Shown here one piece after another: positions 2,161 through 58,568 of a stretch of 64,000 nt of DNA. This DNA is from Lachnospiraceae bacterium (lineage in GTDB: Bacteria; Bacillota; Clostridia; Lachnospirales; Lachnospiraceae). The DNA is taken from NCBI GenBank assembly GCA_015057505.1, contig SVEG01000002.1, forward strand, positions 62,001-126,000. The letters are read 5' to 3'. Below the pieces are notes generated by a model, which had not been told where the DNA came from, did not search any database, and saw nothing but the letters and a program-made list of their open reading frames with translations. The position numbers and the translations under genes were made by a program. How positions within the stretch are numbered: the first letter of the stretch is position 1; every line of letters starts with the position of its first letter.

Positions 2161-2234
2161 ATTTATGTATTTCCTCTCTAAAAAATTTCAAGGACTATGT
2201 TTCCATAGTCCTTGAATGTAGTTCCACTCTTCCC

Positions 2235-2534
2235 TTAAATCTCCTGTCTTAATTCTGCAAACACTTCTCTGGCAGGACGTGTTTTCCCTTCTCTTGCCTG
2301 TTGTAACCCTATTTCCATCATGGAATCAAATTCTGTCTTGCTCATTTCACTCACTGCCTTCGGTTCATTTGCAAGTGTTACAGAAAAAGGAATTCCCTTT
2401 TTTATAATAATCTGCTTATAAAGCATATTGATTAAAACAGATGTTGGAATGCCCAACTGTTCCATAATTTTTTCTGCCTGTTCTTTAATATCCGGCTCTA
2501 CCCTTGCTATTACATTTGCTGTTTTTGTAGCCAT
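2235..2534 (-). CDS. RelB/DinJ-type antitoxin, apparently without toxin
   Basis: 99 residues from ATG 2534, chosen because AAAGGTGG lies just upstream; the longer ORF has no such site. The N-terminal half matches the ribbon-helix-helix RelB/DinJ family (ARVEPDIKEQAEKIMEQLGIP, then INMLYKQIIIKKGIPF). The C-terminal arm is charged and would wrap a toxin. No RelE/YafQ-like toxin gene follows: downstream is the convergent AraC gene, and upstream is the small HTH gene. It may be an orphan antitoxin left from a lost pair, or may act with a toxin elsewhere. Confidence 0.85.
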   Translation of the reverse strand: MATKTANVIARVEPDIKEQAEKIMEQLGIPTSVLINMLYKQIIIKKGIPFSVTLANEPKAVSEMSKTEFDSMMEIGLQQAREGKTRPAREVFAELRQEI

Positions 2535-2661
2535 AGTTATACCACCTTTCAAGAACAGTATATCATTTTGTATATCGTTTAGCAATACATTTTATGCATT
2601 TTCGTTTAATCAAAAATTCCATTACCGATTCGTTTCCGTTTTTTCCTTTTCCATAACCTGA

Positions 2662-2928
2662 CTACTCTCTTTTCAAAGCATCATAATACGCCTTATATCT
2701 ATATGCCGTTCTCCTGCTAATCTCACCTTGGCTTACAATCCCCATAATTGTCATGCCACTTTCATACTTCTCAACAAAAGCATTATATGAAGCCAGCCAC
2801 GTATCGTCATGCTTCTTACGTCCGGCGCGATTCCTGGATCTGTAATGCTCCAGCTCCTCACGTAATGCTTTATTTTCAGCCTCTAGTTCCGATATATAGT
2901 TCAATGCTTCTTCCAGTGTTTTTATCAT
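2662..2928 (-). CDS. Small coiled-coil helix-turn-helix protein, copy 1
   Basis: 88 residues. Residues 1-35 are a charged heptad-like helix (EEALNYISELEAENKALREE), probably a dimerising coiled coil. Residues 55-85 resemble a resolvase-type helix-turn-helix (GMTIMGIVSQGEISRRTAYRY). The start has GGAGG six bases upstream. Residues 1-85 are identical to the second copy at 5408-5683 although the DNA differs. It lies behind a consensus promoter carrying GTGTCA repeats. I infer a small DNA-binding protein, perhaps autoregulatory; family name not recognised. Confidence 0.8.
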   Translation of the reverse strand: MIKTLEEALNYISELEAENKALREELEHYRSRNRAGRKKHDDTWLASYNAFVEKYESGMTIMGIVSQGEISRRTAYRYKAYYDALKRE

Positions 2929-3022
2929 ATAACCTCCGGTGTGCCTATAATTATTCGTGACACTATTATAGCATTAAATTATATGAGTGTCAATTTAATT
3001 TTTGACACAAAGTAAATTTGCC
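2672..3022 (-). repeat. Duplicated HTH-gene locus, copy 1 (351 bp)
   Basis: Aligns without gaps to 5427-5777 at an offset of 2755 bp. I count 15 differences, all transitions. Homology begins inside the last codons of the gene and ends just beyond the GTGTCA operator. The flanks are unrelated. Confidence 0.9.
2957..3008 (-). promoter_or_regulatory. Consensus promoter with GTGTCA operator repeats, copy 1
   Basis: On the minus strand TTGACA (2988-2993) and TATAAT (2965-2970) are 17 bp apart, a perfect sigma-A promoter. GTGTCAA and TTGACAC form a palindrome with an 8-bp centre over the -35. A third copy, AGTGTCA, directly follows the -10. So strong a promoter framed by three identical half-sites suggests tight repression; the downstream HTH protein is a candidate repressor (inference). 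Confidence 0.75.
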
Positions 3023-3030
3023 CATGAACA

Positions 3031-3066
3031 GAAAAAGTCCGACAGAACCAGCTTCCATCGGACTTT
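3031..3066 (-). terminator. Terminator of the XRE gene; hairpin family copy 1
   Basis: AAAGTCCGA/TCGGACTTT stem with a loop containing a short GAA/TTC inner stem, followed on the minus strand by TTTTT. It lies 6 bp after the stop of the XRE gene. Related hairpins are at 11423, 15324 and 18517. Confidence 0.8.
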
Positions 3067-3072
3067 ACATAT

Positions 3073-4140
3073 CTAATTGAATTGCTTTATTGCTTCTTCA
3101 GCCATTGCAACACGTTCATTTATATCTTCTCGCGTAGAATCCCAAAAACCATCCGTATCACCCTCTATAAACATCAAACAATGTCTACCCTCTGAGCTGT
3201 CTAAGAAATCAAAATATCTATCGCGAGTCTCATATAAATCCTGCATATGCATCAATGCTTTCTCTTTATTTCCAAGTTCCGCATTTTCCTTGACTAATGC
3301 CAACAACAACGAGGTCTTCTGAAATATCTGTCGATGCGGAAGATATTCACCGCCGGATAAAAAAGCTTCAATAATTCTTAGCATATACTCATTTAATGCA
3401 ATGCATTTTTCTTTTGCACCGGATTCATTCTGCTGTCTTGTAATTCTTGCAGCTAATCTTATACTTCTTGCAACAAATCGCGCTTTTAAAGCAAAGCTCT
3501 TCTTTATCTTTTCAAGAGCAATATCATACTTACCATCTGCATATGCCATTTCAGCTTCCCAATATTCCCTATCACCATAAATGTAAGGTAAGTTTTGCAT
3601 AAAGCCTTCTGCCTTTATCGTTTCACCGCATAAATCATAAGCTCTTGCCATTAAATAATATGTTTTACATATATTATCAGGATTGTTTTCATATCTGAAG
3701 ATACTATTGCTATACCTCTCGCACTCTTCAAGAAATGTCTTATGCTGTACATCCAATTTCTTTTTGAAAAATAGCTCGATATAACATTCCAGACAACATA
3801 GTGCAACATCGGGTACATCCGGATACTTATTAAAAAATCTTAATGATATGTCATATAACTTAGCTGCCTTTTCCACATCATTAATTAAATTAATTCCACC
3901 CAGACAACTTCGAACTGTCTTCAATTCTCTTTCATAATCTTCATCAGTATGCCCAAGCAATTTGTCTGTTGAAACCTCCAACACTTTTGCCAATGGTACA
4001 ATCTGTGAAATATCCGGCATACCTGCATCTGTTTCCCATTTAGAAATAGCTTGTGTTGATACTCCTATCAATTCAGCTAATTGACCCTGTGTAAAATTTT
4101 TTTCTTTTCTGTACAACTTAATCATCTGACCTATTGTCAT
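3073..4140 (-). CDS. XRE family regulator with TPR-like C-terminal region
   Basis: 355 residues from ATG 4140 behind AGAGGTG. Residues 1-65 form a Cro/C1-type helix-turn-helix (GQMIKLYRKEKNFTQGQLAE, then GVSTQAISKWETDAGMPDI). The remaining 290 residues are helical and repeat-like (KAAKLYDISLRFFNKYPDVP, ALEKIKKSFALK), resembling TPR-type sensing domains of Firmicutes regulators that bind peptides. No peptide gene is evident beside it. It ends at a strong terminator and is transcribed alone. Target unknown; possibly autoregulated through the upstream palindrome. Confidence 0.85.
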   Translation of the reverse strand: MTIGQMIKLYRKEKNFTQGQLAELIGVSTQAISKWETDAGMPDISQIVPLAKVLEVSTDKLLGHTDEDYERELKTVRSCLGGINLINDVEKAAKLYDISLRFFNKYPDVPDVALCCLECYIELFFKKKLDVQHKTFLEECERYSNSIFRYENNPDNICKTYYLMARAYDLCGETIKAEGFMQNLPYIYGDREYWEAEMAYADGKYDIALEKIKKSFALKARFVARSIRLAARITRQQNESGAKEKCIALNEYMLRIIEAFLSGGEYLPHRQIFQKTSLLLALVKENAELGNKEKALMHMQDLYETRDRYFDFLDSSEGRHCLMFIEGDTDGFWDSTREDINERVAMAEEAIKQFN

Positions 4141-4196
4141 ATCTAATCACCTCTTTTTATATTCGGTACCGTAACTTAATCATAACAAATTAGTTG

Positions 4197-4214
4197 TGCA
4201 TAGTACACCATGCA
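4197..4214. promoter_or_regulatory. Palindrome upstream of the XRE gene
   Basis: TGCATAGTACACCATGCA is an imperfect palindrome about 57 bp upstream of the XRE start, a plausible autoregulatory operator. The rest of 4141-4438 holds no gene I can support. Confidence 0.35.
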
Positions 4215-4438
4215 ATTAGATATCATAAATCAACGGAACGTGGATTTTTGTAAATAATTTATTCAGTCATATTAAAACTGCGATATCTTACTCATCTGCG
4301 ATAGCAGCCTGTAAGGTACTAAATAATCGGCTTAGCAATCGCAAAGGTAAAAGACCCCTTTTCGTCATGGAAGGCATATAGGATGTGGAAAGGAGGGACT
4401 AGAAAAATTACCTTTATAACCTTTTTGCGAAGCCTCCA

Positions 4439-5336
4439 CTACAATCCACCTTCTTCAATTTGCGGAATATTAACTAATTGCTGTAACTTTCTTTCTAGAA
4501 CTTCTTTATCCGGCAACAACAACTGATATTTAGATACCAACATAGGGGACATTGTTCTGCTCATAGCATATTCCACAACTTCATCGTTCTTGGAAGCACA
4601 TAGAAGTAACCCAACGCTTGGGTTTTCGTTTTCTTTTTTCACTTGTCTATCCAATGTTTCCAGATAAAAATCCATTTTTGATATGTATTCCGGTTTAAAT
4701 TTACCTATTTTCAACTCCATTGCTACAAGGCACTGTAATCCGCGATGATAAAAAAGTAAGTCAATTCTGAAATCTTCTCCCCTAACCTGCACCTTATATT
4801 CCTCATCGATGAAGGTAAAATCTTTACCCAACTCTAGGATAAAGTCTTTCATATTTTTTATCAGAGCTTTTCGCAAATCACTTTCACGGTATTCATTTGG
4901 CAAATCTAAAAATTCAATAACATATGAATCTAAAAATGGATTCCCACCCAATTTCTTTAATACTTAACCGGATATAAAATTCTCTCTCTTCAGCAGACTT
5001 GCAACCGGACATAATTAACAAATGGTTAGTCCAACTAATTTGTGTCACCAGTGGTGACACAAATTTATTATCTTTATATGTTTCATAGAATTTTTTCATC
5101 CTATAAAGACCGCTTCGATTAAATCCTTTTATTCCGGGAAAAGCCTCTTGTATTCCTTTTACAATATTATCAATATAGGCGTCGCCAAAAGCAGCTTGTT
5201 CAGACTCTTTGCTAAGGAATTCTCCAACCTTCCAGTACATATTGATAAGTTCTTCATTTACTTTCCTTATTGCATTCTGTCGAGATTCGTTAATTATGTT
5301 AACTAAATAAGCTACTGGCGCTATGTCATTTCCCAT
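4439..5336 (-). pseudogene. DUF1016 (YhcG-type) PD-(D/E)XK nuclease, internal deletion and frameshift
   Basis: Two ORFs are halves of one DUF1016 protein. The N-terminal half (start ATG 5336 behind AAAGGAG) has the DUF1016 N domain, ending at REFYIRLSIKE. The C-terminal half resumes at LDSYVIEFLDLPNEYRESDL and holds the nuclease core (RIDLLFYHRGLQCLVAMELK). In family members roughly 40 residues normally separate these segments. Here they are missing and the reading frame changes at about 4955, so the gene is broken by a deletion. These proteins accompany restriction and defence loci; this one is probably inactive. It is preceded by the second copy of the small HTH gene. Confidence 0.85.
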
Positions 5337-5407
5337 AAAAAGCTCTCCTTTAATTTGTGACACCACTAGTATCTCTAATCCTTTACTATCGCAATGTAGT
5401 TCCCTTA

Positions 5408-5683
5408 TCAACTATGCTGCTTTCTATTCAAAGCATCATAATACGCCTTATATCTATACGCTGTTCTCCTGCTAATCTCGCCTTGGCTTACAATCCCCAT
5501 AATTGTCATGCCACTTTCATACTTCTCAACAAAAGCATTATATGAAGCCAGCCACGTATCATCATGCTTCTTACGTCCGGCGCGATTCCTGGACCTATAA
5601 TGCTCCAGTTCCTCACGTAATGCTTTATTTTCAGCCTCTAGTTCTGATATATAGTTCAATGCTTCTTCCAGTGTTTTTATCAT
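5408..5683 (-). CDS. Small coiled-coil helix-turn-helix protein, copy 2
   Basis: 91 residues. Residues 1-85 are identical to the product of 2662-2928; only the tail differs (NRKQHS instead of KRE) because homology stops there. The eight coding DNA differences are all synonymous. It has the same coiled coil followed by HTH, and the same promoter and operator. It ends about 70 bp before the start of the DUF1016 pseudogene, so it may once have been co-transcribed with it. Function unknown; a DNA-binding role is inferred. Confidence 0.8.
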   Translation of the reverse strand: MIKTLEEALNYISELEAENKALREELEHYRSRNRAGRKKHDDTWLASYNAFVEKYESGMTIMGIVSQGEISRRTAYRYKAYYDALNRKQHS

Positions 5684-5777
5684 ATAGCCTCCAGTGTGCC
5701 TGTAATTATTTATGACACTATTATAGCATTAAATTATATGAGTGTCAATTTAATTTTTGACACGAAGTAGATTTGCC
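5427..5777 (-). repeat. Duplicated HTH-gene locus, copy 2 (351 bp)
   Basis: Partner of 2672-3022. A run of about 50 bp covering the -10, -35 and GTGTCA half-sites is identical in both copies, while the 5' leader and the edges differ. Confidence 0.9.
5713..5763 (-). promoter_or_regulatory. Consensus promoter with GTGTCA operator repeats, copy 2
   Basis: TTGACA (5743-5748), 17 bp, TATAAT (5720-5725) on the minus strand, with the same palindrome over the -35 and the same third half-site after the -10 as copy 1. Confidence 0.75.
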
Positions 5778-5831
5778 AACCTTCGAAACTTATTTACCGA
5801 AACTGAAGTAATGCTATGTAAATAAAATCAC

Positions 5832-5872
5832 AAAAAAAAACTGAAATCCCTGTTTTACACCAAGACTCAGTT
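5832..5872 (-). terminator. Terminator after the zinc-ribbon gene
   Basis: On the minus strand AACTGA and TCAGTT enclose a weakly paired interior and are followed by a run of T. It lies about 70 bp beyond the stop at 5944. Confidence 0.55.
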
Positions 5873-5943
5873 CCTCTATCTAATTATATTGTATATCTCA
5901 AAATAAACCTGAAATTTGGGTTAGTTCTTACAGTAATATAACA

Positions 5944-6465
5944 TTACTTCTTCTTACTATCTTTTGCACTACCGTGTCCCCAATGTTCCGTTAGTTTTTC
6001 ATCGCAATCTCTGATTATTGTTCCTGTATCCGTATAAATTACTTTTTCCACGTATCTATCGTTGATCTTATCAATCATTCTAACTCTTGTTACTGCACCT
6101 GTTCCGTCTTTTTGAAATGAACTGCTTGAATATTTGATTTCAAAATTTCTTTTGCTTACATCATCCTTTACGATACTGACTTCCGATTCAAATGGTAAAT
6201 ATTCTTCTTTTATATATCCCCAATCATCTAAAATATCGTCAGCTGTAGGATTTTCTTTTATTTCAATTCTTTTTCTAGTAACAACAGCTCGCCAATCCTT
6301 CTTCCCGCACAAGGGACAATAATTCAATAACTCCATACTCACTGCACCACAATTAGGTGTCATACATTCATATCCTAGTATCTCTTCTACTTGCATTTCG
6401 TTTGTGCTAAAATCTTTCATACTATGTTTCTCTACCAAATTCAAATTTGTCCGTATGATTATCAC
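5944..6465 (-). CDS. Uncharacterised protein with zinc ribbon
   Basis: 173 residues if started at GTG 6465, which overlaps the stop of the upstream gene; an ATG at 6420 (MKDFSTNE) would give 158. Near the N-terminus CMTPNCG and CPLCGKKDW form a four-cysteine zinc ribbon. The remainder (FEIKYSSSSFQKDG, VRMIDKINDRYVEKVIYTDTG) looks like a beta-rich domain I do not recognise. Coupled to the DUF3788 gene, so the two may act together. Confidence 0.7.
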   Translation of the reverse strand: MIIIRTNLNLVEKHSMKDFSTNEMQVEEILGYECMTPNCGAVSMELLNYCPLCGKKDWRAVVTRKRIEIKENPTADDILDDWGYIKEEYLPFESEVSIVKDDVSKRNFEIKYSSSSFQKDGTGAVTRVRMIDKINDRYVEKVIYTDTGTIIRDCDEKLTEHWGHGSAKDSKKK

Positions 6466-6928: not shown

Positions 6929-8029
6929 TTAATTGCATTTTTTTATTCTTTTCTCCAAATTCTTGTATTTTTCCTGCATACGCTGTGATGCCACATCCTT
7001 CTCCCGCTTCAGCTTCGTTTCATAGTGGTTTCGAATTTCTTTTAAAGTCATTGTTGCTTTGTCAATCAAATTTCTTTCTCGTTCAATTTCCTCAACCATT
7101 TCTAAGATTTCTACCAAAGAATATCGGCTACATACTTCCTCATAAACAGCGTCATCCATATTTTGATATTCCAAACAAGAATCATAAAAAAGGTTTCGTA
7201 TAGAAACAGGTTTTAATGTCGTTGAGTTGAATACCATTTTCAAAGCAGAAATCGCTTTAGCCTTCCTTCCAAGGCAGTAATTAGCCTTAAATAATAAGGA
7301 ATACTTGAGATAATTGTTATCAGTTTTACTTTTTTTTATTATCTTAATGCATTTTTTAAAATCTCCTAGAAGATATTGTTTTTTCGCTTTGTTGTAAAAA
7401 AAATCGCCTAGAAGATATTTGTTAATGGACTTATCGATTCTCTTATAAGACCATACAATTCCCTGTAACTGTAAATACAGCTTGCTTAACTCCAAAAAAT
7501 TCTCAGACATATAAGCAATTGTTGGCACGACGGGTCTATAGCAAGTATTGCCCACTACATTATCGGCCTTTTCGTCATATGAATATACAGTTACCTTAGT
7601 TGAAATTTTTCTTAAAAGCAAAATTTCTTCAGCGGACATAAACGCATAATAGGTAGCGCTTTTATCAATCTTTTGACATAATTCTTTAGTTCTCACATCA
7701 AGATCGTTACCAACCGGTAGCAACTTATCTGCCATTTCATCAAATTTGAACGAGGAGTTTAAGCACTTGTTCTGTAACCACAACTCAAAATCCTCTTTTG
7801 TGACTAAACCAGACTCTATTTTATCAAAAGGAAAACTCCAACCAAATTCATTGATTTTAAGAGCAATACTTAGATAACTGCTAAGTGCTATAAAAATTTC
7901 ATAAATATCGAATTCCACTTTAGGTCTTACTTTGTTGTATCGCCTTTTTTCAGGCAAAAAATTAAAAACAATCCAAAAAATAAATGATGCGATTAATGAT
8001 GTAATTATCGCTAATAAAATTTCTTCCAT
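6929..8029 (-). CDS. Uncharacterised protein with N-terminal membrane anchor
   Basis: 366 residues from ATG 8029 behind AAGGAG. Residues 3-27 are one hydrophobic segment (AIITSLIASFIFWIVFNFLP) followed by a basic stretch, so the protein is probably membrane-anchored with a large cytoplasmic part. The middle contains helical segments resembling TPR units (YLLGDFFYNKAKKQYLLGDF). The end is a charged coiled coil (LKREKDVASQRMQEKYKN). No family recognised. Low GC content typical of the island. Confidence 0.7.
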   Translation of the reverse strand: MEEILLAIITSLIASFIFWIVFNFLPEKRRYNKVRPKVEFDIYEIFIALSSYLSIALKINEFGWSFPFDKIESGLVTKEDFELWLQNKCLNSSFKFDEMADKLLPVGNDLDVRTKELCQKIDKSATYYAFMSAEEILLLRKISTKVTVYSYDEKADNVVGNTCYRPVVPTIAYMSENFLELSKLYLQLQGIVWSYKRIDKSINKYLLGDFFYNKAKKQYLLGDFKKCIKIIKKSKTDNNYLKYSLLFKANYCLGRKAKAISALKMVFNSTTLKPVSIRNLFYDSCLEYQNMDDAVYEEVCSRYSLVEILEMVEEIERERNLIDKATMTLKEIRNHYETKLKREKDVASQRMQEKYKNLEKRIKKCN

Positions 8030-8089
8030 GACATATCTCCTTAGTTAGATATGAGACACTTATTATAATGAATTGTACCACAAACCATG

Positions 8090-8350
8090 TTACTTTCCAA
8101 TGTATCCTGCACAATTCATAAATAATTTGCCAAGTTTATCAGCAACTTCTTGCCGAGTTGACGTAAACACATGCGCATAGCAATATGTTATATCGATGCT
8201 CTCGTGAGCAACACAATCTTCGGCCCCAAGTTTTTCTAATACATTCAATACAAGTCTTTGATGTTCAGTAGGACTATTAGGATATATATGTGCTATTTGA
8301 TAAATTTTATTGAGCCTGCCACCTTTACCCATTCCGGCAAATTCTTTCAC
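8090..8350 (-). CDS. Small uncharacterised protein
   Basis: 86 residues from GTG 8350, ten bases after the stop of the HAD gene and without a clear ribosome site, so probably translationally coupled; ATG at MGKGGRL is an alternative start. Motifs YQIAHIYPNSPTEHQRLVLN and YCYAHVFTSTRQEVADKLG do not match a family I know. Confidence 0.55.
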   Translation of the reverse strand: MKEFAGMGKGGRLNKIYQIAHIYPNSPTEHQRLVLNVLEKLGAEDCVAHESIDITYCYAHVFTSTRQEVADKLGKLFMNCAGYIGK

Positions 8351-8359
8351 AATTAGAAA

Positions 8360-8953
8360 TTACACTTTAAACATTTTCTCGAGCTCATAAAAATTCATAA
8401 CGGTTTTTCCATCATATTCTACACCTCTACTATTAAACAAAACCGTATCCATACCTACTTTTCGCGCCGCCCCAAGATAGCTTCTTCTATCATCCACATA
8501 CACACAATCTTCTGCTTTCAACTCAAGTTTCTCTAAAGTAAGTTCAAATATTCGGCTATCCGGCTTTTGAATTTTTAAGTCTCCACTAATGCTTATTACA
8601 TCGAAATACTGATTAATTTGAAATTTTTCGCGTATGTATTTGCTCCATCTACTTGAATCATTTGATATAATGGCTAATTTATATTGTTTCTTCGCACTCG
8701 CTACAAATTCATAAAAACCTTCATTTAATTCAATAGTATCCAAATATTCTTTCTCTACTTGTTCCAAATTTCCTTTAAACCCTAAAATTCTCCACACATC
8801 TAGAGAAGATAACTCTCCCACGTCCGCTTTAAACCACGGCATTCGTATCTCATCTTGTGAAAGATCCGGAAATATGTTCTGCACGTACGGAACAAAATCA
8901 TCACCTGTTTGCTTAACTATTACTCCATACATGTCTAAAATGATTGCTTTCAT
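8360..8953 (-). CDS. HAD family hydrolase
   Basis: 197 residues. HAD motif I is ILDMYGVIVK, so the second aspartate is replaced by Tyr (DMYG). Motif II is AIISNDSSR, with the lysine region at LKIQKPDSRIF. Motif III/IV is CVYVDDRRSYLGAARKVGM. Usual length for a small phosphatase of this superfamily. The substituted second aspartate, normally the general acid/base, questions simple phosphatase activity. Start ATG 8953 behind AGGAGAG. Follows the NUDIX gene closely, probably one operon with the GNAT gene. Confidence 0.85.
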   Translation of the reverse strand: MKAIILDMYGVIVKQTGDDFVPYVQNIFPDLSQDEIRMPWFKADVGELSSLDVWRILGFKGNLEQVEKEYLDTIELNEGFYEFVASAKKQYKLAIISNDSSRWSKYIREKFQINQYFDVISISGDLKIQKPDSRIFELTLEKLELKAEDCVYVDDRRSYLGAARKVGMDTVLFNSRGVEYDGKTVMNFYELEKMFKV

Positions 8954-11267: not shown

Positions 11268-11300
11268 ATTTTACCACGTCACCCTTACAATTCTCTTACA
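11268..11300 (-). promoter_or_regulatory. TGTAAG-box activator promoter, copy 1
   Basis: Minus strand: TGTAAG at 11295-11300 and 11284-11289 (11-bp period), 10 bp, then extended -10 TGGTAAAAT (hexamer 11268-11273). There is no good -35. The arrangement matches promoters activated by OmpR-type response regulators. It is 50 bp upstream of the membrane-protein start. Confidence 0.65.
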
Positions 11301-11422
11301 AAAATACAAATTTCTACATTTTTCACAAAAAATTCTTAACTATCCGCTGTCTTTTCCTTCGATAATCGCTTATTAAAATCCATTTCACTTTACACTATAC
11401 ACATTACTTGCCGCATACATGC

Positions 11423-11457
11423 AAAAAAGTCCGACAGAACCCACTTCCATCGGACTT
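11423..11457 (-). terminator. Hairpin family copy 2, after the pseudogene
   Basis: AAGTCCGA/TCGGACTT stem followed on the minus strand by TTTTTTG. It lies about 10 bp beyond the pseudogene stop at 11468 and its sequence is close to copy 1. Confidence 0.75.
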
Positions 11458-11467
11458 CCATATCCAC

Positions 11468-11880
11468 CTATTCTACCTCTGCCACATTAAGCTCCATAGC
11501 TGTAACACAGCTTCCCCACTCGGCACTAATGCCAACCTTTGAAACGATACGCAAATCAGGATTTTGCTTCAACGCCCTAATATACGGTAAATCTGTACGT
11601 TCTATGCGTTTTTCTCCGTCTACTGTCAGCGTCATCTTCTCGCGTTCCAAAAGCCAAGAGATATTTACAAATTCATTTACCGAGATTTTGCCGAAACCGC
11701 CGAAACCGTATTGCTACGCAGTCAATACATCGTATATTCGCAATTCTTCCTCCTTGCATTCCGATTAAAAATGTCTTCACAGTTGTCAGAATAAAATCTT
11801 ATATTAGCGCTGTCGGTTTTCGCAGCAACATTGACCTTAAGCGTAAATGCATAAGTCTGTGGCGTTTTGAGGTAGTAATT
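11468..11880 (-). pseudogene. Decayed fragment of a conserved C-terminal domain
   Basis: Three reading-frame segments form one protein-like string. YYLKTPQTYAFTLKVNVAAK and TDSANIRFYSDN lie in one frame. After a frameshift, ECKEEELRIYDVLTA follows, then an in-frame TAG at 11714-11716, then QYGFGGFGKISVNEFVN through MELNVAEVE. The string is reminiscent of a C-terminal domain in clostridial AraC-like proteins (recalled, not verified). The apparent TTG start at 11743 with a perfect AGGAGG is a coincidence: those bases encode KEEE. The N-terminal part is missing, replaced by the gene at 11887. Confidence 0.7.
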
Positions 11881-11886
11881 TCATTA

Positions 11887-12999
11887 TCAACTACACATCT
11901 TTAGTATTGATTGCATACGTTGAACTTGTTCTTCAAAATTTACTTTCTTTGCACCTCGTTGTTCCAAGTATTCCTTAACTTTGTCAAAACATACATCTAT
12001 ATCTCGCAACATTCCATCAGTAAAAGTTATTGTTGTAATTCCATATTGCTTATAGAATTCATTCCTTTTTGCCATTTCTTTTTCCCATTGTAATCTTATA
12101 TCTTCATTCATTTGTTTTTGAGTTTTGCTAGTAATTCCACTCACACTCATATGTGTAGATTGCGGACTTATTTCAAACCCAATCAATTTTTGCGTATAAG
12201 GATTTAATATTGTAAAATCTAATCTATACTTATGTGCTTGATCTTCTTTACTAAATCTGAACTCGGGAATAAGTAACGGAACCTCTGTTACGTTTTCATG
12301 TCTTTTTAGAAACTCAAAATATTTCGCCATTATCTGCTTCTCATAATCAGATCTTGAAATTCTCATTACTATCTGTTCATAAAAATTAATAAAGGCTTGC
12401 AAATCAGAAAACGTATACGGTTGTGGATTTCCTGGCGAAACAATTCCTGTTGACAAAATATGTCCAATCGTCCAATATTCATATTTCGCTCGTCTTATTT
12501 CACTTACATCATTTGTCCACTTTTCTTGCCTATAAGCAGGACTAATCATTATTCCCCAAAATAATGGATTGCTACCAAACCATACTTCCCACAAATTTTC
12601 ATTAGGTTTATATCTTTTTCTTTCTTTCAAATTTCTATAAAAATTTCTTTCAAGAAATGTATTAATATACTTTTGACAAATTGGATACTTCATCATTTCC
12701 AATATAATATATTGATATTTGCCATTTGGCCCATCAAACACTTTTTCTCCATATGCATCACATAAACCTTTTAACCATTGTGCTATAAAGTCATTAGGAT
12801 TAACAAATTCTGTTCTTATACTATCAACAAAAATGTTATTTTTTCCGCCAATAGTACTATGTAACGATTGCAAAGAACAGCTATCTGCCTTACCCTCTCT
12901 AACGCGTAAATTACTATATATTTTTAACACTTCTTCTTGATCTTTCTTTATCACTTCAGTCAGATGTTCTGCATATGCCCATGCACTTGTAAAACCCAT
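11887..12999 (-). CDS. Putative nuclease downstream of the OLD gene
   Basis: 370 residues from ATG 12999 behind GGAGGG. Residues about 245-300 carry YRLDFTILNPYTQKLIGFEI followed by SPQSTH, which resembles the D...E..H layout of Vsr/DUF559-type PD-(D/E)XK enzymes. The usual Lys or Asp after the Glu is Ser here, so catalysis is uncertain. The rest has aromatic-rich segments (NLWEVWFGSNPLFWGIMI) without a known family. It lies 157 bp downstream of the OLD gene without a terminator I can see, so the pair may be one transcript and one system. Confidence 0.65.
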   Translation of the reverse strand: MGFTSAWAYAEHLTEVIKKDQEEVLKIYSNLRVREGKADSCSLQSLHSTIGGKNNIFVDSIRTEFVNPNDFIAQWLKGLCDAYGEKVFDGPNGKYQYIILEMMKYPICQKYINTFLERNFYRNLKERKRYKPNENLWEVWFGSNPLFWGIMISPAYRQEKWTNDVSEIRRAKYEYWTIGHILSTGIVSPGNPQPYTFSDLQAFINFYEQIVMRISRSDYEKQIMAKYFEFLKRHENVTEVPLLIPEFRFSKEDQAHKYRLDFTILNPYTQKLIGFEISPQSTHMSVSGITSKTQKQMNEDIRLQWEKEMAKRNEFYKQYGITTITFTDGMLRDIDVCFDKVKEYLEQRGAKKVNFEEQVQRMQSILKMCS

Positions 13000-13156
13000 T
13001 TCTTTCCCTCCATTTACATATAAATCTATTTCGCTTTCAGATATACGTTTTCCATTACATTGTCATATTCAAAGCTTTCATCATTATTTCTCACTAATGA
13101 TGTGCAAAGAATAAGAGAAAAGCGAAGGAAAATGGTTATCTCAGATTTTTATTATC

Positions 13157-15010
13157 TTAATTTTCAAAAATCTCAAATAATTTAACCCATTTAGTAAAAT
13201 ATTCATTAGGAATATCAGCATGCTTCTTGTTTTTAAGTGCTTGCTTAAATGCTTTTGACAACTCTACTTTCCATCCTTCACCTAATTCAACCGAATACTT
13301 TTTTGCAAATTCTTCTATTTGAGGAAGAATAGGTCTTGCCACATCATATTCATCTTCAAAAGCTGCCTCTTCTACAGAAACAAACATACGTGTAATGCCT
13401 CTGTTTAGAAGGCTAAATGGAACAATATCTTCAACTTCACTATTATCCATTTCAACAATATCTTTTATTTCAATAACACGTACTTTTTGGTCTTTGTATA
13501 AACCGGAATGCAACTTTTTCACCGCATCTTTACCCATCTGATCTGAATCAGCAATAACATATGGAAGTTGCTCTGCTTTGCTAGAAACAATGCTTACAAC
13601 ACCTGAAATACCTTTTACACCACCTGATGGTATGAAAACAATTTCCTGCTTAGGGGCTATCTTTTTTTCCTTAATCAAAAATGCCTTGATAGCATTAAGA
13701 TAATATTGATCCGATGGACCTTCTACTATTACAGTTTGACACCCTTGCAAAAGTATATCAGAAACACTAAGTCCCATAGCCGCGTGAACGGCATAAATGG
13801 ATTTTTCATTTAGCGCATCTGTTCCTTGCCTTAAATTACAAGAAGACAATGTATTTCCATTTTCGTCCCTATACACAACCCTGCATCTATCAATGTTTGA
13901 TGTATCAATCAAAAACGGAGAATGCGTTGTGTTGATAATTTGATTTGTCTCCGATAACTTGTCAAAAAACTTAGAAAGATCCTTTTGAGCCATAGGGTGC
14001 AAGGTTAATCCTGCTTCATCCAAAAGCAAAATCGCATTTTTATGTTGTTCTTGACTTTCTACTAAGAATATTAAATAAAAGCTTAAAAACCATTGTAAAC
14101 CTGTGCTCCGCAATTCTAAAGCCACTTCATCTGCTCTTATACTGTCTGAAACCCATATACGGAAATACTCTCCATCTGCTTCAAATCTGAATCTATATTC
14201 CCCTTGATTCCACCACTCTTTAAATTTTGTAGTTAATTCGTTTGATGCAGACTGTAAAAGAATGCTTCGTTTCTCTTTATTATTCTCTGCTTTTTCTATT
14301 TCAGCCTTCTTAGGTATACCAGGTTGATTATTAACCCCTTTTGGTGCATAAGAACTTGCCTCTTGTCCTAAATCTAAAATTTCCTGTGGGTTCAATTTCA
14401 CAAAATCAAACAACACCCTTAAAGTACGTACCTGTTCTTTATTTGGATCTATACCAGTAACAACTTGTCCGTTCAACCATTTTACAACATGTGGTAAATA
14501 AATTTTCGCTGATAAATTCCCATAATTTGAATAATACACAAACTTCGGAATATGTTTAAGCACTTCATTATTTAAATTTTCTATATATATGGATTCATCA
14601 AAATTTTCATCTGCCTTATTTTTTTCCGTTGCTTCTGGGACTCCATTTGGATAATCAAATTTATATGTACCATCATAATATCTAGATACCACAACCGTAT
14701 TTCCTTCACAACAATTTGCGCCAACTTCTTTTGATATTTCATCAGCGCTTTCCTTATCAATCATAAATTCAGCAGATATAAATTTAACTTCTCCTAAATT
14801 ATCACGTAATGTGCTTAGTTTTGAAACTGGCAAATCATGAAGTTCATCTATTTCTCCTTCACGTGCCGGATTGAGTTTCCACAGAGCTAAAAGTAAGTTA
14901 GACTTTCCAGATTCATTAATCCCGACTAATGTTGTAACATCATTACAGTCAATCCAACCACTATCCTCTACAGAACGAAAATTTGCCACTTGATAACGAG
15001 TTAATTTCAT
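13157..15010 (-). CDS. OLD-family ATP-dependent nuclease (AAA ATPase plus TOPRIM)
   Basis: 617 residues, ATG 15010 behind AAGGAGG. Walker A is GINESGKSNLLLALW at about residue 30. A signature-like STGLQWFLSFYLIFLVE precedes Walker B LLLDEAGLTLHP and the switch NTTHSPFLID. A C-terminal TOPRIM domain follows, with VIVEGPSDQYYL (Glu) and YVIADSDQMGKDAV (DxD). This is the OLD nuclease layout, known from phage P2 Old and from GajA of Gabija. No UvrD-like helicase follows, so it is not canonical Gabija; a putative nuclease gene follows instead. Promoter with TGTAAG boxes at 15192. Confidence 0.88.
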   Translation of the reverse strand: MKLTRYQVANFRSVEDSGWIDCNDVTTLVGINESGKSNLLLALWKLNPAREGEIDELHDLPVSKLSTLRDNLGEVKFISAEFMIDKESADEISKEVGANCCEGNTVVVSRYYDGTYKFDYPNGVPEATEKNKADENFDESIYIENLNNEVLKHIPKFVYYSNYGNLSAKIYLPHVVKWLNGQVVTGIDPNKEQVRTLRVLFDFVKLNPQEILDLGQEASSYAPKGVNNQPGIPKKAEIEKAENNKEKRSILLQSASNELTTKFKEWWNQGEYRFRFEADGEYFRIWVSDSIRADEVALELRSTGLQWFLSFYLIFLVESQEQHKNAILLLDEAGLTLHPMAQKDLSKFFDKLSETNQIINTTHSPFLIDTSNIDRCRVVYRDENGNTLSSCNLRQGTDALNEKSIYAVHAAMGLSVSDILLQGCQTVIVEGPSDQYYLNAIKAFLIKEKKIAPKQEIVFIPSGGVKGISGVVSIVSSKAEQLPYVIADSDQMGKDAVKKLHSGLYKDQKVRVIEIKDIVEMDNSEVEDIVPFSLLNRGITRMFVSVEEAAFEDEYDVARPILPQIEEFAKKYSVELGEGWKVELSKAFKQALKNKKHADIPNEYFTKWVKLFEIFEN

Positions 15011-15191: not shown

Positions 15192-15224
15192 AGTTTACCA
15201 TATCAACCTTACATTTCTCTTACA
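15192..15224 (-). promoter_or_regulatory. TGTAAG-box activator promoter, copy 2
   Basis: Minus strand: TGTAAG at 15219-15224 and 15208-15213, 10 bp, extended -10 TGGTAAACT (hexamer 15192-15197). Same spacing as copies at 11268 and 18416. It leaves a leader of about 175 nt before the OLD start. Confidence 0.65.
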
Positions 15225-15323
15225 AAAATAATATTTTTCGACATTTTCCTAAAAATATTCTTAATTAATCGTTTTTTATACCACTTCATTTTATCTACTA
15301 TACATAATCCATCATAACAATAC

Positions 15324-15360
15324 AAAAAAATCCGACAGAACCAGTTTCTGTCGGACTTTC
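15324..15360 (-). terminator. Hairpin family copy 3, after the EcsC gene
   Basis: TCCGACAGAA and TTCTGTCGGA pair perfectly; in copies 1 and 2 the middle two pairs are CA/CA mismatches. Followed on the minus strand by TTTTTTT. It lies 11 bp beyond the stop at 15372. Confidence 0.8.
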
Positions 15361-15371
15361 CATACTATCTA

Positions 15372-16109
15372 TCAAATTTCTTCCACATCATTATTTGCCA
15401 ATACTTCTTCAAAATCAGCCGCGTCCACAACGACGGTTTCCTCTTCTTCCTTGCGCTTCGTAAAGTCACCTTCCATGAACCATTTATATGCTCTGTCGGC
15501 AATCAACTTTGTTTCAACCAAATCAAGACCACCGCCAATTACCGCACCAACTCCCGGTAACATTTTACCTAAATTCAAAACACCCTTAGTTCCAAATTTA
15601 GTTATAAATCTAAAACCAACTTTCTGATTTATCTTTGTCAAAACCTTACCCGGTATTTTCTTGATTAGTCCGTTTGCAAACTTCATACCAAACTTTATAC
15701 CCGCTTGCTTTATAAGTTCATTCACTGCTACACCAGCCAAACAAGCATAGATAAATGTCTGAGTCTGGTCACTATCCAATTCAAATCCATTCATATATGC
15801 AACACACGCTATCATTCGCATCTGCACATACAACACGCTTCCTATATTCGCCGGCAAAGTTACCGGCATAGTAACAATTCCTCCAAATCCGGCAATAAAC
15901 CCTGATGTTGTACACTTGGCAATCTGATTACGAAGCATTGCCTTACATGCCTCTTCCTTTGTTGCATACTTTTTCAAATAATCATTTGCCATATCTTCGA
16001 CACTGGAACTTACTTTAGGAACTCCATGTAAACATTTGTCATAGCAAGAATCTAATAACTTCATGATATCTGCTTGTGTTAATAACTGTTTCTTTTCTTT
16101 TTCACTCAT
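15372..16109 (-). CDS. EcsC family protein
   Basis: 245 residues from ATG 16109 behind AAAGGAG; the 268-residue form in the track has a weaker site. EcsC features are visible: GFIAGFGGIVTMPVTLPANI, YVQMRMIACVAYMNGFEL, then a glycine-rich amphipathic region GKMLPGVGAVIGGGLDLVET. EcsC proteins are membrane-associated and of unclear biochemistry; some are found in anti-phage loci. It lies 218 bp downstream of the AIPR gene, same direction, ending at a hairpin terminator, so the two may be one transcript. Confidence 0.85.
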   Translation of the reverse strand: MSEKEKKQLLTQADIMKLLDSCYDKCLHGVPKVSSSVEDMANDYLKKYATKEEACKAMLRNQIAKCTTSGFIAGFGGIVTMPVTLPANIGSVLYVQMRMIACVAYMNGFELDSDQTQTFIYACLAGVAVNELIKQAGIKFGMKFANGLIKKIPGKVLTKINQKVGFRFITKFGTKGVLNLGKMLPGVGAVIGGGLDLVETKLIADRAYKWFMEGDFTKRKEEEETVVVDAADFEEVLANNDVEEI

Positions 16110-18415: not shown

Positions 18416-18448
18416 ATTTTATCACACCAACCTTACATTTCCCTTACA
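18416..18448 (-). promoter_or_regulatory. TGTAAG-box activator promoter, copy 3
   Basis: Minus strand: TGTAAG at 18443-18448 and 18432-18437, 10 bp, extended -10 TGATAAAAT (hexamer 18416-18421). It leaves a leader of about 160 nt before the AIPR start. Confidence 0.65.
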
Positions 18449-18516
18449 ATTTACAACAAATTTCGACTTTTTCTTTTTTTGCTTTATTAACTTTATCTAT
18501 TTATCCCAATACACAC

Positions 18517-18552
18517 AAAAACCCCGACGGAAGTAAACTTCCATCGAGGTTC
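18517..18552 (-). terminator. Hairpin family copy 4
   Basis: On the minus strand AACCTCGATGGAAGT pairs with ACTTCCGTCGGGGTT through two G-U wobbles, followed by TTTTG. The pairing works only for RNA of the minus strand. It lies 9 bp beyond the stop of the 30-codon ORF at 18562. Confidence 0.75.
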
Positions 18553-18561
18553 ATATAGTCA

Positions 18562-18654
18562 TTATTCACGAGCATATGGCTCGTTGCTTACGCGTATCTT
18601 ATTCCCTACGCCCTCGAAAAAGCTTCGCTTTTTCTCGTATGTTGTATTCGCCAT
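18562..18654 (-). CDS. Possible 30-residue protein or repeat-derived ORF
   Basis: Encodes MANTTYEKKRSFFEGVGNKI then RVSNEPYARE. A related ORF (MANITHEKKRSFFEGVGGRI) is at 22365. It ends 9 bp before hairpin copy 4, as three other minus-strand genes or gene remnants end just before their hairpins. Against a gene: the purine-rich site GGTGG is only 3 bases from the ATG, and the DNA contains a self-complementary core. The rest of 18655-18760 shows nothing. Confidence 0.35.
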   Translation of the reverse strand: MANTTYEKKRSFFEGVGNKIRVSNEPYARE

Positions 18655-18664
18655 AATCCACCAC
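18605..18664. repeat. Intergenic repeat with GAAAAAGC hairpin, copy 1
   Basis: About 60 bp aligning to 22426-22485, with the shared core ccctcgaaaaagct and gctttttctcg that folds as a hairpin, and attcgccataatc at the end. Roughly eight differences. Confidence 0.75.
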
Positions 18665-18760: not shown

Positions 18761-19360
18761 TTAAACATCTCCTGCATTATATACCTTCAATATGGCTTCC
18801 TTAACCTCATAAAGATTACTCAAAAGCAACTTGAATTGTTTTATACCGACATCACCATTACACATTAAATCCATATAATCAACAAGCAGGTCCCCTCCAT
18901 ATTTACTGGATTTCAATGTTATTTCAGGATATCTTAATGACATATACAAGTCATGGGAATTTGTTAGGTGATTTGTTTTCATAAAGTTTTTGATAATGTC
19001 AATCTGATTATCATAATATGTTCTTAGAGAATAATACAATTCTGAATTCACACCATAAAAACCCATAAGAAACTCCAAAAGCTCTTCGACACTATGTTTC
19101 TTTTCAAATGTTTTACCATTCAGCAATAGCAATCCTTTTACAAAAAGCTCTGTACTTTGTAAACAATTAAAAACAGCAGGAATGAATAGGTACAAATCAC
19201 TTTTTAATGCATTATGCTCCATTTCACATTGCGCTTCTTCTGCTGTATTCCCAATTCCGGCATTTGAATTCTTATTATTTATTAGTGTTTCCAATAACAA
19301 TTTCGCCGTTTCAAAGTATTGTTCTCCTAATCTAAAATAGCATATCGCCCGTTCCTTCAT
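18761..19360 (-). CDS. HEPN-like domain protein
   Basis: About 199 residues from ATG 19360 (GGTG six bases upstream); the track start adds 19 residues. Helical pattern FRLGEQYFETAKLLLETLI, then FIPAVFNCLQSTELFVKGLL and KKHSVEELLEFLMGFYG, resembles HEPN domains (A-x-Y...E...K..L...H.L). The RxxxxH ribonuclease motif is not seen, so it would be a non-catalytic HEPN member. No partner nucleotidyltransferase is adjacent. Moderate confidence in the fold, function unknown. Confidence 0.6.
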   Translation of the reverse strand: MKERAICYFRLGEQYFETAKLLLETLINNKNSNAGIGNTAEEAQCEMEHNALKSDLYLFIPAVFNCLQSTELFVKGLLLLNGKTFEKKHSVEELLEFLMGFYGVNSELYYSLRTYYDNQIDIIKNFMKTNHLTNSHDLYMSLRYPEITLKSSKYGGDLLVDYMDLMCNGDVGIKQFKLLLSNLYEVKEAILKVYNAGDV

Positions 19361-19459
19361 TTCGATCACCATATCCTCTAAAAACAAAAAGAAATAACTA
19401 CCGACAAAATGCACCACTTATAAACTTATTTTACTAAACCTCTTTTATCGACGATAAGC

Positions 19460-22364: not shown

Positions 22365-22475
22365 TCATATTACTTCCAAATTATCAATAACATTCCTATA
22401 CATTATGCCATGTTTTATCCTGCCTCCCACGCCCTCGAAAAAGCTCCGCTTTTTCTCGTGTGTTATATTCGCCAT
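22365..22475 (-). CDS. Possible 36-residue protein related to the ORF at 18562
   Basis: MANITHEKKRSFFEGVGGRI then KHGIMYRNVIDNLEVI. The first 20 residues match the ORF at 18562 with five changes. No good ribosome site; may be only a repeat. Confidence 0.25.
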   Translation of the reverse strand: MANITHEKKRSFFEGVGGRIKHGIMYRNVIDNLEVI

Positions 22476-22485
22476 AATCTTCCAC
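22426..22485. repeat. Intergenic repeat with GAAAAAGC hairpin, copy 2
   Basis: Partner of 18605-18664. The remaining 22237-22425 shows no gene. Confidence 0.75.
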
Positions 22486-56513: not shown

Positions 56514-58568
56514 ATGATTTTTGAACCTACAAATTTGGACTATAATTTAAGCCCTTACACAGGACTTACAAGGGACAATTGGATCGATGCCGGAAAATAT
56601 CTTCTTACAGGCATGTTTAACCACATCCCGTCCATTGAGGCACCCGTAATAATGCCCCGTCGCGAAACAGAGATTACATATCCGCACAAGGATGCAACCG
56701 GTAATCGACTTAAGCAAGAGGAAATGGCTCAAAAATTTGAGGGACTTGCCCGTTCTTTACTTATTGCCGCACCGCTTATACATATCGAACCTGAAATAAC
56801 CATCTGCGGTTATTCCCTTAAAGAATATTATCGCAAACAGGTGCTTTATGCCTGCACCAAAGGACATCCGAATTTTGTGGGCTATATGGATGATTTGAGA
56901 GAGCTTGCAGGTACGGATGACCCTTCGCGTACCTTCCAGCAGACAGTTGAGACCTGTGCACTTGTTATGTGTCTTGACATCTGTAAGGAAGAAATCTGGG
57001 ACACTTACTCTAAAGACGAAAAAGATATTGTAGCCAACTTCCTTCTCAGCTACGCCCATACAAGCACCGTGCCGCAGAACTGGCGACTTTTTAATATGCT
57101 CGATATGGCTTTCCTGCACAAAGAAGGCTACAAAGTAGACAAAGATATTATGCGTGAACATGCTCAGGTAATTCTTAACTACTACGCAGGCGACGGTTGG
57201 TATAGAGACGGTCAGAACTTTGACTACTACTCCTGTTGGGCATTTAACGTTTACACTGCTTTCTGGTGCAACTGGTACGGCTACGAACACGAGCCATACA
57301 TTGCTGCCGGATATGAGCGCAATTCCAACAAGCTCATGGAAACCTACGCCGACTTTTTTGACAAAGACGGTTTTACCAATATGTGGGGACGAAGCAATGT
57401 TTACCGCAATGCCGCAACAAGTGCATTTGACGGCAATATGATGTTTAGAAACTCCAAAGTAAATCACGGACTTGCAAGAAGAATTGCTTCCGGCTCACTT
57501 TTACAGTTTATGACAAGGGATGACTTCCTTTATGACGGTGTACCGACCATGGGCTTCTATGGTCAGTTTGCACCACTTGTACAGGGCTATTCCTGCGCAG
57601 AGTCCGCGTACTGGCTCGGTAAGGCATTTTTATGTCTGCACCTGCCGGCAGAGCATCCTTTCTGGACTGCCGAAGAAAACAACGGAAGTTGGGAAACCTT
57701 AGATGAAAAAGGCATAAAAGAAACCACTCTTAACGGCCCGGCACTCTGCTTTACCAACCATAACGCCAACGGCGAAACAATTCTCCGCTCCGGCAAAGTT
57801 GTTAAAAAGAGCACTGACACTCATGCAATGTGGAATTACTCCAAACTCAGCTTTAACAGCAAGTATCCGTGGGAAGCTTCACCTACAAGGGATATTGAGT
57901 CCATGCAATATGTCCTCACCGACGGACTTACAGAAAATATCGAGAAATGTAACGTAACCTTCTGGCACGGAATTCGTGATAATGTATTATACCGCAGACA
58001 GTTTTTCAATTATAATCTTGAAACCGAAACTCACTGGAGACAGGCACTTAACCTAGCTGACTTTCCTGTTGAATATGGAATACTCCGTGCCGATAAATTA
58101 AGGCTCTACCGTGCTCCTTTTTCACTTACTCTCGGTGCTTACGGCTTCCCCGATAACGGCACAGAAATTATCCGCAAAGAATCAGGCAACGCCAAGGCTA
58201 TTATTCTTAAAGGACATGACTACACAGGTCGCGAGAAACAGCTTGCAATGACAATTTACGACGGATGGGACAGCCTTGATTTTGTTCACAGTGAAGGTAC
58301 CAATCCCGACTCCGACAAATCAATTGTTATTTACGGTAAGACTGCCCGCCACAAATTATACGGCTATGAACAATTTGTATTGATTTCTCAGGTGATTACA
58401 AAAGAATCTCTCGAAGATTTTACGAAAGATGAAATCTTCCCCATTAAAGAAATAGTTTATACCGACAAAGAAAAACGCGGAGGCTACGGACCAGTAGAGA
58501 TTATCCTCAAAAACGGCAACACAAAAACAATCGATTACGAAGGAATAGAAGGTAACCTTCAGTTATAA
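56514..58568 (+). CDS. DUF2264 glycoside hydrolase-like protein
   Basis: 684 residues from ATG 56514 (AAAGGA upstream). DUF2264 features: PYTGLTRDNWIDAGKYLLTG, FNMLDMAFLHKEGYKVDKDI, DGWYRDGQNFDYYSCWAFNV and IAAGYERNSNKLMETYADFF. No signal peptide, so it acts in the cytoplasm on imported sugar. I recall DUF2264 as related to glucuronidases of CAZy family GH154, to be checked. Located with the two-component system and the transporter, so a saccharide utilisation locus. Confidence 0.85.
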   Translation: MIFEPTNLDYNLSPYTGLTRDNWIDAGKYLLTGMFNHIPSIEAPVIMPRRETEITYPHKDATGNRLKQEEMAQKFEGLARSLLIAAPLIHIEPEITICGYSLKEYYRKQVLYACTKGHPNFVGYMDDLRELAGTDDPSRTFQQTVETCALVMCLDICKEEIWDTYSKDEKDIVANFLLSYAHTSTVPQNWRLFNMLDMAFLHKEGYKVDKDIMREHAQVILNYYAGDGWYRDGQNFDYYSCWAFNVYTAFWCNWYGYEHEPYIAAGYERNSNKLMETYADFFDKDGFTNMWGRSNVYRNAATSAFDGNMMFRNSKVNHGLARRIASGSLLQFMTRDDFLYDGVPTMGFYGQFAPLVQGYSCAESAYWLGKAFLCLHLPAEHPFWTAEENNGSWETLDEKGIKETTLNGPALCFTNHNANGETILRSGKVVKKSTDTHAMWNYSKLSFNSKYPWEASPTRDIESMQYVLTDGLTENIEKCNVTFWHGIRDNVLYRRQFFNYNLETETHWRQALNLADFPVEYGILRADKLRLYRAPFSLTLGAYGFPDNGTEIIRKESGNAKAIILKGHDYTGREKQLAMTIYDGWDSLDFVHSEGTNPDSDKSIVIYGKTARHKLYGYEQFVLISQVITKESLEDFTKDEIFPIKEIVYTDKEKRGGYGPVEIILKNGNTKTIDYEGIEGNLQL

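Follow-up and report, generated by a model that had tools for sequence, protein, structure and literature searches.

Modification-dependent endonucleases such as PvuRTs1I and AbaSI are encoded by single genes without a methylase, and join a Vsr-like nuclease domain to a C-terminal SRA-like reader. OLD-family proteins combine an N-terminal ABC ATPase with a C-terminal TOPRIM domain that carries an acidic motif. Within this family, class 1 OLD proteins are encoded by single genes, and class 2 proteins are accompanied by a UvrD-like helicase (PMC10568477, PMC7049728). Class 1 genes have furthermore been described as not lying near other defence genes (PMC10568477).

Here we analyse a 64,000-nucleotide stretch of a Lachnospiraceae genome (hereafter the window, to which coordinates refer), in which an OLD gene is followed by the gene of a 370-residue putative nuclease. 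An earlier note, made from the sequence alone, had proposed that the two may form an undescribed two-gene anti-phage system. We instead favour, at a probability of roughly 0.66, the reading that OLD and the nuclease are independent defence modules within one acquired A+T-rich island and make up no obligate system, the nuclease being a solo member of an undescribed family.

Genes of the A+T-rich island

Both open reading frames are borne out on the minus strand, with OLD (13157–15010, 617 aa) first in transcription order and the nuclease gene (11887–12999, 370 aa) following after 157 bp. In full, the order of transcription on this strand runs from an AIPR/AbiU-type abortive-infection protein of 640 aa (18249–16327) through an EcsC-family protein that matches the PADLOC candidate PDC-S29 (16178–15372, 4e-75), OLD and the nuclease to a 320-aa predicted membrane protein of no confident family (11251–10289). 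A HEPN-domain protein of 218 aa is also encoded on the minus strand of the island (18761–19417). The G+C content is approximately 30–35% from about 3 to 22.5 kb of the window versus 41–45% outside, in agreement with this stretch being an acquired island.

Intrinsic terminators were called on the minus strand at 15325–15361, separating the EcsC-type gene from the OLD promoter, and at 18519–18552, upstream of the AIPR promoter. The unit formed by OLD and the nuclease is closed by a terminator-like inverted repeat, GTCCGA...TCGGAC-T6 (11424–11463, minus strand), which is a copy of the inverted repeat of the 15325–15361 terminator and was missed by the terminator scan because its loop exceeds the scan's length limit. 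Between the nuclease gene and this repeat lie about 400 bp without an intact open reading frame (11460–11870), perhaps the remnant of another cassette gene. The EcsC-type gene comes straight after AIPR; as no terminator-like site was called in between, the two possibly form an AIPR–EcsC unit. Long direct repeats were found at 2662–2961 and 5417–5716 (300 nt, 95% identity), at 16–315 and 478–777 (300 nt, 85%) and at 18605–18664 and 22426–22485 (60 nt, 90%); flanking or lying inside the island, they suggest duplication or recombination-prone boundaries. A search of positions 1–26000 gave no Rfam match, and thus no retron was found there.

A class 1 OLD protein among other defence genes

The 617-aa protein finds its best profile matches in AAA_15 (4e-24) and the PADLOC Old model (2e-30), and its best solved-structure match in Thermus scotoductus OLD (TsOLD, 6p74). 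It shares Walker A (NESGKS), Walker B (LLLDE), TTHSPF, VEGPSDQYYL, DSD and VED motifs with six relatives, in line with the earlier note, which had listed all OLD motifs as present. The gene is complete and has the ATPase–TOPRIM architecture of the OLD family, with a TOPRIM Pfam score of only 14.8 bits against a cut-off of 23.2. Judged by P2 Old and TsOLD, its ABC-type ATPase and TOPRIM nuclease would cut foreign or damaged DNA.

The gene is flanked by the EcsC-type and nuclease genes, and no UvrD/PcrA/Rep helicase or reverse transcriptase adjoins it. The absence of a UvrD partner, which the earlier note had rightly pointed out, is ordinary, since class 1 OLD genes are defined as single genes. 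The window copy resembles the class 1 proteins P2 Old and TsOLD in its single gene and domain order, and differs from class 1 genes in sitting among other defence genes. In addition, it is about 85 aa shorter than all aligned relatives, the gap falling after residue ~115. In class 1 OLD a helical dimerisation domain is inserted in the ATPase, and the alignment places the gap at a site that possibly corresponds to this insert as described for TsOLD.

Two other ATPase systems were considered. Gabija shares the OLD-family ATPase–TOPRIM protein, but the window gene is without an adjacent UvrD-like GajB and matches GajA models less well than Old. The AriA ATPase model of PARIS (AriA–AriB) also matches, but no DUF4435 occurs among the proteins scanned, and the TOPRIM motifs that the window protein itself carries count against PARIS.

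Relatives of the window OLD at 46–53% identity are found on plasmids of Hymenobacter, Pseudosulfitobacter, Paracoccus and Deinococcus, each with differing neighbours and with no helicase or nuclease in common. More distant relatives (29%) also stand alone, and a scan of viral contigs found no close relative.

OLD and the nuclease are not a conserved pair

To the extent that gene order can speak for a functional pair, the window offers some grounds for a real two-component anti-phage system. The two genes lie on the same strand at the distance given above, the unit has terminator-like repeats at both ends, and scans found neither a terminator nor a minus-strand promoter-like site in the gap, where the RNA fold is unremarkable (z −1.1); the coordinates and the terminator scan thus agree with the arrangement set out in the earlier note. 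As a promoter-like box (described below) precedes OLD and a terminator-like repeat follows the nuclease, a single promoter probably serves both genes here.

The wider distribution argues strongly against such a system. We assembled 56 nuclease loci (L005–L060) from about ten phyla, comprising 51 loci in sequenced genomes, four distinct plasmid loci (five records, two of them near-identical) and one in a viral contig; the loci stem from a profile-guided scan seeded by conserved peptides and are hence a sample. None of the 56 has a relative of the window OLD within about 8 kb, and the window OLD, EcsC, AIPR and HEPN proteins are all absent from them (tblastn, E<=1e-3). Clustering of open reading frames around the 56 loci revealed no protein family that recurs as a steady neighbour. 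Furthermore, among 32 whole genomes with the nuclease, 27 have no OLD match anywhere at E<=1e-3, and the nuclease is missing around 39 OLD-like loci, most of which have only about 1.5 kb of flank. The closest nuclease, from Anaerocolumna (74% protein identity), shares DNA similarity with the window only at 11883–13001, so that between the two closest known carriers this gene alone is shared.

With an OLD profile, one OLD-family neighbour appeared among the 56 loci, in L050, a proteobacterial metagenome genome in which the nuclease copy lies directly beside a Gabija pair (2229–6241). This second instance of proximity could be counted for the two-component account, though the neighbour is the GajA-like gene of that pair and is followed by its UvrD-like gene. 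Taken together, a two-component system appears very unlikely. The co-occurrence search that the earlier note had proposed finds the second gene mostly without OLD neighbours, the outcome that the note itself had named as refuting, and the suggested two-gene system is not supported. The two genes do not constitute a new system, and a two-component account should not be built on them.

The nuclease has a predicted PD-(D/E)XK domain

None of 43 members of the nuclease family has a convincing match in Pfam, NCBIfam or PADLOC (2.0.0), the best PADLOC value being an unconvincing 0.0036 in one member. The YRLDF...GFEIS...H core picked out in the earlier note is real, with D261, E276, S278 and H283 invariant in the 43 relatives. 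Invariant residues also occur in the N-terminal part, namely W161, D164, S166, E167, I168, R169 and H180.

Structure prediction, which the earlier note had suggested for this protein, gave an AF2 model with a mean pLDDT of 88.7, dividing it into an N-terminal helical/beta region (residues 1–212) and a C-terminal domain (residues ~213–350) of alpha-beta-beta-beta-alpha-beta topology (H218–233/E243–248/E260–266/E271–277/H294–317/E321–326). Structural comparison of residues 214–350 with VIA-align returned I-Bth0305I (Z 6.6), NGO0050 (6.4), Vsr (5.9) and PvuRTs1I (5.6), with Can2 within the same range and AbaSI at Z 4.5; the top matches have an rmsd of 2.8–5.2 over 92–126 aligned residues, and all are modest, with Z under 8. 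Foldseek searches of PDB and viral libraries gave no match at E<=0.001 (E > 0.1), and phmmer matches in the PDB (glutamate receptor) were dismissed as chance. The model predicts a PD-(D/E)XK fold for the C-terminal half, nearest to Vsr/I-Bth0305I-type endonucleases. This placement relies on topology together with conserved residues; it is credible in that PD-(D/E)XK-type nucleases fill nearly all of the top ranks and that D261, E276, S278 and H283 lie on or next to the expected active-site strands. Both the core fold and an acidic active site (D261/E276) are thus present in the model, against which stands the replacement of the usual ExK lysine by E-x-S.

Consequently, the Vsr/DUF559-like label of the earlier note stands for the fold and falls for family membership, as none of the 43 members matches DUF559 or Vsr in Pfam or NCBIfam. 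The nuclease resembles the Vsr-like/EDxHD/DUF559 group (Vsr, I-Bth0305I, NGO0050), its best structural neighbours, in a D ... ExxxxxxH core, and differs from it in the missing sequence match and in a conserved 212-aa N-terminal region that the group lacks. DUF559 proteins have E-x-D-G where the nuclease has E-x-S-P. Likeness to PvuRTs1I and AbaSI lies in the single gene without a methylase and the Vsr-like domain, but the extra domain of the nuclease is N-terminal and unmatched. Modelled alone, this domain reaches a pLDDT of 92.4 and has no structural match at Z>=5, which leaves room for a known fold.

Spread and proposed function of the nuclease

Phyla are interleaved in the nuclease tree, and sequence comparison establishes the family as widely transferred, in the form of a single gene. 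The two closest copies differ by a dN of 0.19 and a dS of 2.55, which is near saturation, giving a dN/dS of about 0.07; the nuclease is under purifying selection. Its neighbours match 142 PADLOC models (E<=1e-8) versus 16 for an equally large set of 97 proteins from elsewhere in the same genomes, a rough measure that counts models and not proteins, since one protein can match many models. By this measure the nuclease lies in defence islands. A scan of viral contigs and phage records for close relatives found none, and a literature search found nothing on this kind of nuclease. A family present in about ten phyla by this search, located in defence islands and without a Pfam, NCBIfam or PADLOC entry can be tested as a one-gene defence.

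Several further matches call for separate mention. On a Pseudomonas aeruginosa plasmid (L008), the nuclease gene lies in two pieces (7950–8567 and 15500–16045), interrupted by an insertion that carries IS66 and mercury-resistance genes. A weak match in one genome (G160) falls inside a uronate-isomerase-like open reading frame and is due to chance, and the matches in another (G344), two pieces in different frames, probably represent a broken copy.

The best reading of the nuclease is that of a stand-alone, methylase-less, restriction-like enzyme with a putative antiviral role. Its C-terminal domain, with D261, E276, S278 and H283, would cut DNA, and target choice would fall to the N-terminal part, with invariant W161, D164, S166, E167, R169 and H180. 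Since the gene moves without a methyltransferase, an antitoxin or any other partner, the protein must tell target from self on its own. This choice would be built into the nuclease, most simply through recognition of modified or otherwise phage-specific DNA in the manner of type IV-like restriction; in the simplest scheme the N-terminal part would read modified phage DNA, by analogy with PvuRTs1I and AbaSI.

Gene neighbourhoods bear on whether the protein is instead an orphan restriction endonuclease or a selfish nuclease acting by addiction, with the antidote methyltransferase encoded elsewhere in the genome. Its PD-(D/E)XK fold would suit such an enzyme, as would the restriction-modification genes among its neighbours on two plasmids. 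However, neither a methyltransferase nor any other family recurs beside it, and the neighbours differ among related copies, which makes this origin improbable.

The main rival to a stand-alone restriction-like nuclease is a role in abortive infection, in which the protein would act as an effector and cleave nucleic acid of the host once its N-terminal domain senses phage. The nuclease occurs as a single gene in islands rich in Abi genes (AIPR in the window; AbiEi/AbiEii and Abi_C in L005), and residues 130–347 overlap structurally, in part, with Can2/Cdn1 nucleases. On the other hand, no sensor domain was recognised in residues 1–212, where a known fold may still lie below the Z>=5 threshold, and we regard an effector role as doubtful.

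A promoter-like motif shared by defence units

The earlier note had also pointed to a TGTAAG box and regulated expression. TGTAAG-N5-TGTAAG occurs four times in the window versus 0.29 expected, with three of the matches in the island. Box 1 (15208–15225, minus strand), a TTGTAAG-N5-TGTAAG direct repeat of 11-bp period with GTCGAA upstream (to 15242) and GGTAAA downstream, lies about 200 bp upstream of OLD and not in front of the nuclease. Box 2 (11284–11301) precedes the 320-aa gene and box 3 (18432–18449) precedes AIPR, both on the minus strand, and the three island units that begin with a box each follow a terminator or terminator-like repeat. The box is therefore real and present upstream of OLD, but not particular to the pair; a shared regulated promoter probably drives expression.

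In the whole genome there are exactly five copies of TTGTAAG-N5-TGTAAG, three in the island, one at window position 56554 inside a long open reading frame, which we attribute to chance, and one on another contig (G000:C23:120803–120820, minus strand; L148:10804–10821). The last precedes, by about 115 bp, an operon that opens with a methyltransferase gene. PADLOC models assign this operon to PD-Lambda-5 (subunit B 8e-117, subunit A 1e-93), and an AAA_15 ATPase gene comes next. The four copies outside the open reading frame align over about 60 nt and share GTCGAA on the upstream side, with GTAGAA in one copy, and a TAAAAT-like element downstream; three of these full-consensus copies precede known defence genes (OLD, AIPR/AbiU and PD-Lambda-5) and one precedes the 320-aa gene, and the genome search gave no further full-consensus copy.

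The box is a promoter-like motif, and the placing of its four copies suggests that the units behind it form a small defence regulon. The predicted layout would be an A-rich stretch, GTCGAA, the 11-bp direct repeat TTGTAAG-N4-WTGTAAG and a TAAAAT-like element. As a tentative extension, which we hold possible and no stronger, a dedicated regulator may run a phage-defence regulon of four units (AIPR–EcsC, OLD–nuclease, the 320-aa gene and PD-Lambda-5) at two distant loci from one promoter of about 60 nt, behind which cassettes have been captured and of which the nuclease is a member. If so, new defence cassettes captured behind the promoter would become co-regulated at once, and the nuclease would be a new single-gene restriction-like member of the regulon. 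With a promoter common to unrelated defence operons at separate loci, it can be tested whether an immune arsenal is under coordinated control.

None of 396 further genomes of the family contains the exact long motif, a match in one viral contig (L154) falls in G+C-rich coding sequence and reflects chance, and a literature search found nothing relevant on a shared defence promoter. The 11-bp period resembles the sites of OmpR/PhoB-type response regulators. One near match was found in a relative (G472), upstream of a truncated response-regulator-like open reading frame.
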